NCBI GenBank assembly: GCA_017549025.1
Contig: JAFYWB010000018.1
Coordinates: 1-64,000 of the forward strand
Length of the DNA: 64,000 nucleotides
Direction: 5' to 3'
Source of the DNA: Treponema sp.
Lineage (GTDB): Bacteria; Spirochaetota; Spirochaetia; Treponematales; Treponemataceae
Of this stretch, positions 1,475-5,023 are shown piece by piece. A program made the position numbers and the translations under genes. Under the pieces are notes generated by a model that worked only from the letters and a program-made list of their open reading frames with translations, did no database searches and was not told where the DNA came from. Numbering within the stretch: the stretch's first letter is position 1; every line of letters starts with the position of its first letter.

Positions 1475-2209
1475 TCACATTTTAAATTCTTCGCCCAGGT
1501 AGATTTTTCGTGCCACCTCTGACTGTAAAATTTCCTGCTGGGACCCCTGGGCCACAATCTGTCCTGAGCTGATGATAATAGCTCGGTTTGTAATTTCCAG
1601 TGTATCCCGCACATTATGGTCCGTAATCAGCACTCCAATTCCCCGCTGGGTCAATTTTCCCACCATAGTTTTAATGTCATTAACGGCAATGGGGTCAATT
1701 CCCGCAAAGGGCTCGTCCAAAAGCAGAAACTTTGGCTCAATGGCCAAGGAACGAGCGATTTCGGTACGGCGTCGTTCACCTCCAGACAGGGTGTAGGCTG
1801 GCTGTTTTCTGATTCTTCCAATGTCGAATTCATCAATCAGCTGCTCTAGCCGAAAGTTTTTTTCTTCTTTAGATAAATCTTTGCGGGTTTCCAACACTGC
1901 CCAAATATTTTGCTCCACTGTCAGCTTCTTGAACACGGAAGCCTCTTGGGGAAGATAGGAAATGCCCATACGAGCTCGCTTGTACATGGGAAAACGGGTA
2001 ATGCAGGTGTCGTTCAAAAAAACCTCACCCATGGTGGGCCGATAAAATCCCACAATCATGTAGAAGGTGGTAGTTTTTCCTGCACCGTTGGGGCCCAGCA
2101 AGCCCACCACCTCTCCCGTGGTCATGGAAAAATCCACCCCACGCACCACCTGCTTCTTTCCAAAGGATTTATACAAGCTGTTGATTTTCAACTGATACTG
2201 GTCGCTCAC
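1475..2209 (-). CDS. lptB: LPS-export ABC transporter ATPase LptB
   Basis: Cytoplasmic ABC ATPase of 244 residues that powers lipopolysaccharide or lipid extraction from the inner membrane with LptFG. Walker A '[13 protein letters not shown]', signature 'LSGGERRR', Walker B '[13 protein letters not shown]' and the switch histidine in '[10 protein letters not shown]' are all present, and '[12 protein letters not shown]' is typical of LptB. The GTG start overlaps the lptA stop by four bases (GTGA), implying translational coupling. It is the last gene of pyrG-lptC-lptA-lptB. T. pallidum lacks classical LPS, so the cargo here could be another glycolipid (inference). Confidence 0.93.
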
Positions 2210-2850
2210 TGCTTTTTCTCCCCTGTTTCCGTAACCTTACCCTTAACGCCACCCTCCAGCGTAATTTCCTCTGTATCCAGATTGAACACAATCTCCTGGG
2301 CCCGAAAGCTGTCGTTGCCTTGCACCACCTGAGGATTTCCCGTCATTTCTAAAAGCTTTTCATCCTTGCGGTACAGGGCAAAGGCACAGGTACAAAGGCT
2401 CTCATCCTTGGTAAGCTCCACCGCCACCTGCATAATGGCAATGGCAGAGAGCTCTCGGTATTCAATCCGTTGAGCCTTTGCCACCACCTCGTTTTCCTTG
2501 TCCTGTAAAACCACATTTCCGCTAAACAGAGCGATTTTTTCTTCCCGATCATATTCCATGGTGGTGCAGGAAAACTCCAGTCCTTCCTCCTGCTGCACAC
2601 CCCGTACCGAGCCTTCCGCCTTGATAAAACGAAAATCTGTGCCATACAGCTCAATGGTGTCTGCCTGAATTTCCATGGAAGCTGTTTTGATGGTGGCTCC
2701 ACCAGAAAGCGTGGTATAATCCTGATTCTGCTTCATGGAACCAGACATTTTTTTTGCGCTGAATTCAATGATTTCTTGGGATGCTTCTTGAGAAAAACTC
2801 GTCCACACAGGCAGGCAGACAAAAAGTAGCAACAAAAAGATTTTTTTCAT
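2206..2850 (-). CDS. lptA: LptA/OstA-family periplasmic transport protein
   Basis: A 214-residue secreted protein. Residues 1-20 form a signal peptide ('[20 protein letters not shown]'). The rest has the repeating short beta-strand pattern of the OstA/LptA beta-jellyroll ('[20 protein letters not shown]', '[19 protein letters not shown]', '[16 protein letters not shown]'), which forms the periplasmic bridge for LPS. It sits between lptC and lptB with four-base ATGA/GTGA overlaps on both sides. The fold call rests on pattern and context; individual residues are poorly conserved in this family. Confidence 0.82.
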
Positions 2851-3425
2851 GGAGCTTCACCTTTAGCGGTGGCAGTATAGATTTTACCAGAAACGGCACC
2901 AGTAAACTGAAAATTTCCTGTAACACCGCTGGCAGAAAATCCAGAGCCAGTGAGTTCAATGCTGGTGGAAGGAGCTGCGTCTTGGGCAGTACCTTTTTTT
3001 AACTCCAAGGTATCCTGAGCATCAGTAACCAACTGTTGGGTTTTGCCGTCCCAACTGAGAGATTGTGTATGAAGAATAAGATTTTCCTCAAAGGAAGTGA
3101 TTTCCACCTGTCCCAGCAAAGCATACCGCTCACTGGAGCTATCTGCAGAAATCAGCTGACAGCTTCCCTCCGCAGAAAGCTTTTCTTCATCATTGTAGGT
3201 GGAAAAATGCACCTGAGAGCCGTAGAGAGCACCATCCTTTTGATACTGCTCCAAAACGGCAGCCTCAAGCACCAGAGAAATCTTGCCCTCCTGATAACTC
3301 ACGTACCGAGCTTGGGAAAACACCAGCTCTGGCACATGAGCCACCTCCGGCTCCTGGGATTGATAAGTGAGAGAGCAGGAGCAAAGGAACAGCCCGCACA
3401 GGGCCAACAGGAATAACCGAGCCAT
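2847..3425 (-). CDS. lptC: LptC-like lipoprotein
   Basis: A 192-residue predicted lipoprotein. 'MARLFLLALCGLFLCSCS' is a type II signal peptide with a Cys in a lipobox-like setting. The beta-rich body ('VFSQARYVSYQEGKISLVLE', 'YGSQVHFSTYNDEEKLSAEG') matches LptC-type proteins that pass lipid from LptB2FG to LptA. Family LptC carries one N-terminal membrane helix; a lipid anchor would do the same job. The ATG shares one base with the pyrG stop (TAATG) and the stop overlaps lptA by ATGA. Assigned mainly from topology and operon position. Confidence 0.7.
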   Translation of the reverse strand: MARLFLLALCGLFLCSCSLTYQSQEPEVAHVPELVFSQARYVSYQEGKISLVLEAAVLEQYQKDGALYGSQVHFSTYNDEEKLSAEGSCQLISADSSSERYALLGQVEITSFEENLILHTQSLSWDGKTQQLVTDAQDTLELKKGTAQDAAPSTSIELTGSGFSASGVTGNFQFTGAVSGKIYTATAKGEAP

Positions 3426-5023
3426 TATTTGTTCAAGGCTGCCGCCACAAAGGATTTGAACAAGGGATGGGGCTTGGTGGGACGAGAGGTAAATTCTGGA
3501 TGGAACTGAACGCCAACACCCCAAGGATGATCCTTCCACTCAAAGGCTTCTACCAAGCCATCTTGAGCCTTAGCACTTATCTCTAGCCCACACTGAGCCA
3601 TATCCTGAGTGTAGCGTGGATCAAAAGCGTATTTGCTGCGATGGCGCTCAGAAATCTGGGTGGCGCCATTGTACACTTCAGCTAAGCGAGAACCAGACTG
3701 CAGGGCAATGGTAAAAGCTCCTAAACGCATCAGTCCTGCGGCAGACAACCCTGACTGCTCCTCTGGCAGGCTGATAACTGGGTGGCTGGTGCTCTGAACA
3801 AATTCTGTGGAATCAGCATCCTTCCAGCCCAAGATGTTACGAGCAGACTCAATGGCCATAAGCTGCATTCCAGAATTGATTCCCAAGAAGGGAATTTTAT
3901 GCTCACGAGCATACCGCACACCAGCCAGCATTCCCAAAAAGCCTCGCTGACCGTAGCTGTCGGGAATCAAAAGACCATCCAAGCCTTCAAAGAACTGGGC
4001 AATGTTATCAGTTGCTTCCAAGCTTTCTGCTTCAATTCTTCTGATTTCCAGCTCCACGTTGTGACCAGCCACCGCCGCATGGAAAATGGCTTCTCGCACA
4101 GACTTGTAGCAGTCGTCAGGGAAATTCTGCCGTCCCATAAGGCCAATAGTAACCTTGCCCTGGGGATTATTGTACTTGTGCAAGAAATTTTCCCAAGGAG
4201 TTAAATCTGCCTTTCTGTCGGACAAGCCAAGGCGAGAAAGAATCTTTGCATCCAAGCCCTGACGATGGAATTCCAGAGGCAGCTCGTACACGGTGCTATG
4301 GACATCCACTGAAGTGAACACAGCAGTAGGCTCCACGTTGCAGAACAGGGCAATCTTCTTCCGTAAATCTGCATCCAGAGGATTTTCTGAACGGCACAAA
4401 AGGATATCAGGCTGAATACCGATTTCCTGCATCTTTTTAACAGAATGTTGGGTGGGCTTTGTCTTCAGCTCGCCACCAAAAAGCATGGGCACCAGTGTCA
4501 GGTACAAGGACAGGGCGTTTCCCTTGCCCAGCTCACGAATTAGCTGACGAGCGGCCTCCAAGAAAGGAATCAGCTCAATATCTCCCACGGTTCCACCGAT
4601 TTCCACAATCACCACGTCGGCACCAGTGTGGTTTCCCACAGCCAGAATTCGTCGCTTGATTTCGTCGGTAATGTGGGGAATTACCTGCACAGTGCGGCCA
4701 TTGTAACGACCAGAGCGCTCGTTGCTAATAACCTCGTTGTACACCTTACCAGTGGTAACAGAATTCAGCTTGGTCAAAGATACATTTGTAAAGCGGGAAT
4801 AGGTTCCCAAGTCCAAGTCCGTTTCCGCACCATCTTCGGTAACATACACCTCACCGTGCTGATAAGGACTCATATTTCCTGCATCTACATTGATATAGGG
4901 ATCGCATTTCATCATGGCCACAGAGAGGCCACAGCACTCCAAAAGGCTTCCTACAGAAGAAGCCGCCACTCCCTTGCCAAGGCTGGAACAAACACCGCCA
5001 GTTACAATAATGTACTTACTCAT
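3425..5023 (-). CDS. pyrG: CTP synthase with a degenerate glutaminase site
   Basis: A 532-residue CTP synthase, which makes CTP from UTP, ATP and an ammonia donor. The N-terminal amidoligase domain is complete, with P-loop 'GGVCSSLGKG', 'KCDPYINVDAG', 'QHGEVYVTEDGAETDLDLG' and 'EIGGTVGDIE'. The C-terminal class I glutaminase domain keeps 'FHPEF' (H508, E510), but the nucleophile motif usually GICxGMQ reads 'GINSGMQ', putting Asn at 383 in place of Cys, and the oxyanion loop usually PGGFG reads 'PDSYG'. It should use free ammonia or a partner glutaminase. The start at 5023 gives the canonical 'MSKYIIVTGG'. First gene of the lpt operon; no Shine-Dalgarno, and a promoter lies seven bases upstream. 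Confidence 0.95.
   Translation of the reverse strand: MSKYIIVTGGVCSSLGKGVAASSVGSLLECCGLSVAMMKCDPYINVDAGNMSPYQHGEVYVTEDGAETDLDLGTYSRFTNVSLTKLNSVTTGKVYNEVISNERSGRYNGRTVQVIPHITDEIKRRILAVGNHTGADVVIVEIGGTVGDIELIPFLEAARQLIRELGKGNALSLYLTLVPMLFGGELKTKPTQHSVKKMQEIGIQPDILLCRSENPLDADLRKKIALFCNVEPTAVFTSVDVHSTVYELPLEFHRQGLDAKILSRLGLSDRKADLTPWENFLHKYNNPQGKVTIGLMGRQNFPDDCYKSVREAIFHAAVAGHNVELEIRRIEAESLEATDNIAQFFEGLDGLLIPDSYGQRGFLGMLAGVRYAREHKIPFLGINSGMQLMAIESARNILGWKDADSTEFVQSTSHPVISLPEEQSGLSAAGLMRLGAFTIALQSGSRLAEVYNGATQISERHRSKYAFDPRYTQDMAQCGLEISAKAQDGLVEAFEWKDHPWGVGVQFHPEFTSRPTKPHPLFKSFVAAALNK

Follow-up and report, generated by a model that had tools for sequence, protein, structure and literature searches.

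A conserved Treponema CTP synthase that has lost its glutaminase nucleophile, a probable ammonia-dependent isozyme encoded beside canonical PyrG

CTP synthase (PyrG) is treated as uniformly glutamine-dependent. In bacteria an ammonia-only and a glutamine-using enzyme for one product can coexist, as with AsnA and AsnB, which are unrelated in sequence, whereas the two Treponema enzymes considered here are both PyrG. A contrast between the AS-A and AS-B asparagine synthetases is drawn in PMC3854871. CTP synthase itself accepts exogenous NH3, and the E. coli variant G352P has no glutamine-dependent activity and is almost fully active with NH4Cl (PMC9138612); the GTP cleft is the presumed point of entry for NH3 supplied from outside (PMC8325340). 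A natural parallel is another class I amidotransferase, vertebrate carbamoyl phosphate synthetase I (CPS1), which lost its catalytic Cys (Ser in the human enzyme), keeps the inactive glutaminase domain and runs on free ammonia (PMC7657897, PMC4655335). Our literature search on Treponema CTP synthase or Cys-less CTP synthases returned nothing on point.

The window analysed here is the whole 64,000-nucleotide stretch of Treponema sp. DNA (contig JAFYWB010000018.1 of assembly GCA_017549025.1), in which a Cys-less pyrG shares an operon with lpt genes. Its features, with residues numbered by alignment to E. coli PyrG unless stated, are as follows.

3425..5023, minus strand: Cys-less CTP synthase paralog (operon PyrG), 532 aa, from the open-reading frame, PyrG equivalog models, alignment and an AF2 model with E. 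coli CTP synthase as top Foldseek match
4223..5017, minus strand: amidoligase (synthase) domain, PF06418, from the domain match and aligned residues
3443..4114, minus strand: class I glutaminase (GATase) domain, PF00117, predicted from its residues to be catalytically dead, from the domain match and aligned residues
3950..3964, minus strand: PDSYG instead of the PGGFG oxyanion loop (G351D, G352S, F353Y), from codons and alignment
3875..3877, minus strand: AAT (coding strand), Asn383 of the protein at the E. coli C379 position, nucleophile lost, from the codon read
3500..3502, minus strand: catalytic-dyad His kept (FHPEF; E. coli H515), Glu517 kept as well, from the codon read and alignment
2847..3425, minus strand: LptC-like lipoprotein gene, from its translation, the start codon overlapping the pyrG stop by one base
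2206..2850, minus strand: LptA-like gene, conserved neighbour
1475..2209, minus strand: LptB-like ABC ATPase gene, conserved neighbour, 60–70% identity in other spirochaete families

The minus-strand open-reading frame (5023..3425) runs uninterrupted from ATG to TAA, and over its full length the protein scores well above the curated cut-offs of the PyrG equivalog models NF003792 and TIGR00337 (EC 6.3.4.2), at 696 vs. 308 and 657 vs. 462.75 bits. The AF2 model has a mean pLDDT of 82.6, and its top Foldseek matches are all CTP synthases, the best solved structure being E. coli CTP synthase 5tkv (TM 0.87). Residues 45–73 and 422–430 are poorly modelled; the tunnel region lies within such a stretch, and we therefore make no tunnel claim from the model. 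Residue roles follow established knowledge of the CTP synthases. The earlier note on this DNA had read a GINSGMQ elbow with AAT at 3875–3877, a PDSYG loop and an intact His-x-Glu dyad, and each of these details was right when the codons and the alignment were read; the elbow thus departs from the GIC(L/Y)G of glutamine hydrolysis. Its statement that the amidoligase domain is intact likewise stood, the window protein retaining K18, K40, D72, E140, D147, E149, E155, K187, K189, Q192, R211 and K223, all of the synthase active-site residues. A sequencing error or frameshift can be excluded, because at least two base changes separate AAT from every Cys codon, and the GINSGMQ elbow recurs in the near relatives L020–L022.

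The protein resembles known PyrG in its two-domain full length, fold, synthase active site, tunnel residues and His-x-Glu dyad, and differs in that Cys, Gly352, His469 and Arg470 are replaced, L109 is Asn, and every near-complete genome that carries it also has a canonical paralog. It resembles CPS1 in having lost the catalytic Cys whilst keeping the inactive glutaminase domain, with the use of free ammonia proven for CPS1 (PMC4655335, PMC7657897) and predicted for the Cys-less PyrG, though the enzyme and pathway are different and the Cys became Ser in human CPS1 and mostly Asp here. The position altered in E. coli G352P is altered here as well; G352P and other glutaminase-dead variants are laboratory mutants, in contrast to a naturally conserved clade.

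The Cys-less form is widespread in the genus. A scan with one genome per species found ~65 Treponema orthologs of the window gene, none with the Cys, in carriers whose sources include the gut of yak and deer and the rumen, among them the named species T. lecithinolyticum, T. parvum, T. socranskii, T. saccharophilum and T. brennaborense. In an alignment with E. coli PyrG, 70 distinct Treponema orthologs carry Asp (60), Asn (9) or Gly (1) at position 379 and Cys in none, whilst Cys occupies it in 37 of 37 canonical Treponema copies and 14 of 14 other bacteria. The Cys is also kept in all 40 operon orthologs fetched from other spirochaete families, the two rows that lacked a motif match reading GICLGMH. 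A highly diverged same-genus member, in genome G008, has Glu at 379. Searched as a degenerate DNA pattern in 10 genomes of the order, the GI[DN]xGMQ elbow gave mostly chance-like matches.

Within the clade the changes cluster at the glutaminase site (379, 352, 353, 469, 470 and 472). Synthase residues K18, K40, E140, D147, E149, E155, Q192, R211 and K223 are invariant (70/70) and D72 is kept in 68 of 70; P54 and V60 of the tunnel are likewise invariant, with H57 in 62 of 70. In the glutaminase domain, G352 has become Asn (59), Ser (10) or Val (1), R470 is Lys in 69 and Arg in one, H469 is Ser or Asn, and the oxyanion loop mostly reads PGNYG rather than PGGFG. Other glutaminase residues are retained: H515, E517, Q383, the glutamine-contact residue E403 and, in lid L11, R356 and G357 each occur in all 70. 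At 23 sites the Cys-less clade has replaced a residue that the operon orthologs conserve; 17 of these sites fall in the GATase domain, where the clade-defining changes include 298, 352, 353, 379, 469, 470 and 472. The notable change in the synthase domain is L109 to Asn (70/70), in the 105–110 loop, which abuts GTP bound at the neighbouring subunit (PMC9138612). With nucleophile, oxyanion Gly352, Arg470 and His469 all replaced and the synthase site intact, the residue pattern indicates that glutaminase chemistry has almost certainly been lost.

The genome of the window (2.48 Mb, 99.99% complete) encodes a second PyrG on another contig (G000:C48), which shares 47% identity with the window protein and reads GICLGMQ, VPGGFG and FHPEF. 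This rules out an organism with no glutamine-type CTP synthase. The earlier note had proposed that the enzyme should depend on NH3 or on a separate glutaminase; for the enzyme this fits the lost glutaminase residues and intact synthase site, but with the canonical PyrG also in its genome the organism need not rely on ammonia to make CTP. Among 134 Treponemataceae genomes at least 90% complete, a window-type copy (at least 61% identity) is present in 53, and all 53 have at least one further PyrG match; every second copy for which a sequence was retrieved is canonical. There are two uncertain exceptions: G591 (84% complete), in which only an Asp-type copy was seen, and a 1.7 Mb assembly with a single PyrG (L083) carrying C379S and H515Q. 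Treponemataceae of T. pallidum size, and others with a single copy, lack the Cys-less gene, which is therefore dispensable. Side by side with this pattern, G008 has three PyrG genes (L010/L163, L019/L165 and L018/L164), two of them highly diverged at the motifs though uninterrupted by stop codons; the third is canonical, and its nearest kin lie in a different Treponema PyrG clade. Five Treponemataceae genomes (G013, G015, G047, G051 and G067; 95–99% complete) have no PyrG detectable by the family model, and presumably rely on cytidine salvage or are auxotrophic. In two otherwise near-complete genomes pyrG is in two pieces (L226/L230 in G032, L227/L229 in G028), possibly through frameshifts.

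The two Treponema copies have different histories. Other families of the order and class have as a rule a single PyrG, mostly 54–62% identical to the window protein, whilst the canonical Treponema copies share 44–48% identity with it. In a maximum-likelihood tree (quick method, with SH-aLRT values as support in place of bootstrap) the Cys-less clade is supported at 100 on a stem of 0.68 and is sister to the Cys-containing operon PyrGs of other families (together 99); the canonical Treponema copies, including that of a 1.1 Mb, T. pallidum-sized genome, form a separate clade (99). The gene order pyrG-lptC-lptA-lptB is common to the Cys-less loci, at which clusters of LptC, LptA and LptB were found at 59, 58 and 61 loci with LptC conserved downstream, and to the Cys-type loci of other families, most of the 40 fetched PyrGs lying directly upstream of lptC, lptA and lptB homologues. 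The fetched canonical Treponema copies lie outside the lpt operon. From the tree and the shared operon order, the Cys-less gene is the ancestral, vertically inherited spirochaete operon copy, in which the glutaminase was lost once; the mapping of Cys loss across spirochaete PyrGs that the earlier note had suggested, made on this tree, gives a single loss at the base of a Treponemataceae clade. The canonical Treponema copy is either a separate acquisition or an ancient paralog. A recent duplication inside Treponema is ruled out by the low identity of the paralogs and their separate supported clades, and we dropped the lpt operon as evidence of a new envelope role, since the operon predates the loss of Cys.

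Both domains remain under strong purifying selection. By the Nei–Gojobori method, ignoring pairs with saturated dS and with many others near saturation, the Cys-less gene shows, between close relatives, a dN/dS of about 0.02 and no higher than about 0.03 in the synthase domain and 0.04–0.11 in the GATase domain, compared with 0.008–0.026 and 0.03–0.11 in the canonical copies. Mean identities tell the same story (synthase and GATase 0.757 and 0.654 in the Cys-less clade, 0.774 and 0.658 in the operon orthologs). Because dN/dS is low and similar to that of the canonical copies, neither domain is decaying and the dead GATase domain is maintained; the same values rule out a pseudogene.

We consider it rather probable that the Cys-less PyrG is a conserved ammonia-dependent CTP synthase isozyme beside canonical PyrG. 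The glutaminase loss is strongly supported by the alignment; from it we infer the NH3-dependent activity, and further a physiological division of labour between the two PyrGs. The ancestral operon PyrG would have permanently lost glutamine hydrolysis in a Treponemataceae lineage that also held canonical PyrG. Its synthase domain, in which the residues are all present, would phosphorylate UTP at O4 using ATP and Mg2+, whilst cytosolic NH3 would enter either by the vestibule at the GTP cleft or by the inactive glutaminase pocket and pass down the tunnel, whose residues are retained and which would serve as the route, to yield CTP. The inactive glutaminase domain, kept under purifying selection, would act as a structural or regulatory part, and glutamine-dependent CTP would come from the canonical PyrG. 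A search of the genome for an Amt-type ammonium transporter, which would have supported ammonia use, returned none, though NH3 also diffuses. Two further counterpoints apply: the canonical paralog could make all CTP, so that NH3 activity may not be the selected trait, and the constraint on the GATase domain equals that of active enzymes, for which a plain NH3-dependent enzyme has no obvious need.

A more specific and tentative proposal, which we regard as unlikely, is that the pocket has been rebuilt as well as broken. A single retained carboxylate, Glu403, His515, Glu517 and the new Lys470 may together bind ammonium, from which NH3 would be passed to the tunnel, or else an allosteric ligand; the result would be an ammonium-port CTP synthase beside a glutamine-type one. 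Positions 379/351 combine as D/G (57), N/D (7), G/D (1), D/A (2), N/A (2) and D/N (1), and 70 of 72 sequences have exactly one acid across the two positions, Asp351 taking over where 379 is Asn or Gly. On the tree the two positions each change five times, and three of the four independent pairs agree with a swap (p 0.25 by sign test), so we rejected the charge swap as statistically proven covariation and treat it as suggestive only. The single acid, the near fixation of Asp379 without drift and the invariance of His515, Glu517, Glu403 and Gln383 (70/70) would also fit a new catalytic site, in which Asp or Asn and the rebuilt oxyanion loop deaminate glutamine or another amide donor; we judge this very improbable, as the window protein itself has Asn, the oxyanion Gly352 and glutamine-binding Arg470 are replaced, and we know of no class I GATase with an Asp nucleophile.

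The copy could instead be a pseudo-glutaminase partner, joining canonical PyrG in mixed tetramers or filaments and tuning it through UTP, CTP or ATP binding, with its own NH3 turnover secondary. In favour are the co-occurrence of the canonical copy in 53 of 53 near-complete genomes, a GATase domain whose conservation matches that of active enzymes, and G008, where high divergence at the motifs affects the Cys-less and the old canonical copy alike and a third PyrG is intact. However, the synthase catalytic residues are all kept, beyond the needs of binding, and between paralogs only 44–48% identical and in separate clades mixed interfaces are not assured; we see perhaps a minor chance that this reading is correct. 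That the retained GATase fold and tunnel residues receive ammonia made in trans, by a stand-alone amidase or the glutaminase domain of the paralog, would leave the pathway glutamine-dependent, and is improbable given that a class I search of the genome found five GATase domains (two PyrGs, GuaA, CarA and HisH) with no obvious spare partner. A change of substrate, to another nucleotide or another amine, would be possible with an unoccupied pocket and a spare gene copy, but the UTP/CTP and ATP residues are the same as in canonical enzymes and we give this almost no weight. Equally slight is the case for a decaying relic kept only for translational coupling, the stop codon overlapping the start of lptC by one base in an operon of conserved order: a synthase dN/dS of about 0.02 and catalytic residues invariant across ~70 sequences are incompatible with coding filler, the gene has been lost in other Treponemataceae, and the selection data largely refute it. 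The ammonia-dependent isozyme remains the reading we prefer.

Damage to glutaminase sites extends beyond PyrG in these organisms. CarA of the window genome (L234, G000:C30:80954–82186) reads GIGLGHQ and VQFYPK against the Cys elbow and VQFHPE of the family, so that Cys, His and Glu are all gone, a loss common to G003 and G006 of the same genus subclade (L268, L269; VQFYPK/VQFFPK); VQFHPE, the motif compared here, is kept in CarA of G001 and G008 and in the remaining ordinary Treponemataceae copies that were read. GuaA, the only GuaA-type GATase found in the window genome, adjoins canonical pyrG (L127:4777–6708, minus strand) and has GIGYGHQ, with Gly at the nucleophile, as well as TLYSDNRSYLD where others read TLYPDIIESGG; it may have lost both glutaminase and XMP site and could be inactive, whereas GuaA of G001 and G002 is canonical. 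HisH of the window genome is canonical. In a sister family (f3), one genus and near kin have single-copy operon PyrGs with scattered glutaminase damage and an intact synthase site (L083, L291, L299, L203, L289, L294): C379S and H515Q in L083, G351C, Q383H and H515Q in L291 (94% complete), G352S and E403A in L299 (99% complete), and Q383H, H469C and E472G in L203, all of them putative point mutations, read in mostly fragmented assemblies. These single-copy enzymes suggest that glutamine-independent CTP synthesis may be tolerated in some treponemes, and together with the CarA and GuaA losses they lend indirect support to the ammonia-rich niche that the earlier note had put forward. As separate observations, several genomes of genus g7 (L280, L282–L284) have a second CarA paralog below the cut-off that yielded no match to the usual VQFHPE motif, and the sole glutamine synthetase match in the window genome (L288, G000:C65:34717–35199) is partial and low-scoring, at 79 bits, inside a 698-codon frame similar in size to a type III enzyme.

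A natural clade with a dead yet maintained CTP synthase glutaminase domain is undescribed as far as we searched the literature. As an experiment of nature, it bears on the reasons for which class I amidotransferases retain a glutaminase domain, on how NH3 enters CTP synthase without glutamine, and on whether CTP synthase isozymes divide labour by nitrogen source, in the manner of CPS I/III or AsnA/AsnB. With the further CarA and GuaA losses in the genus subclade, treponemes of the host gut would serve as a model of how nucleotide synthesis evolves away from dependence on glutamine.
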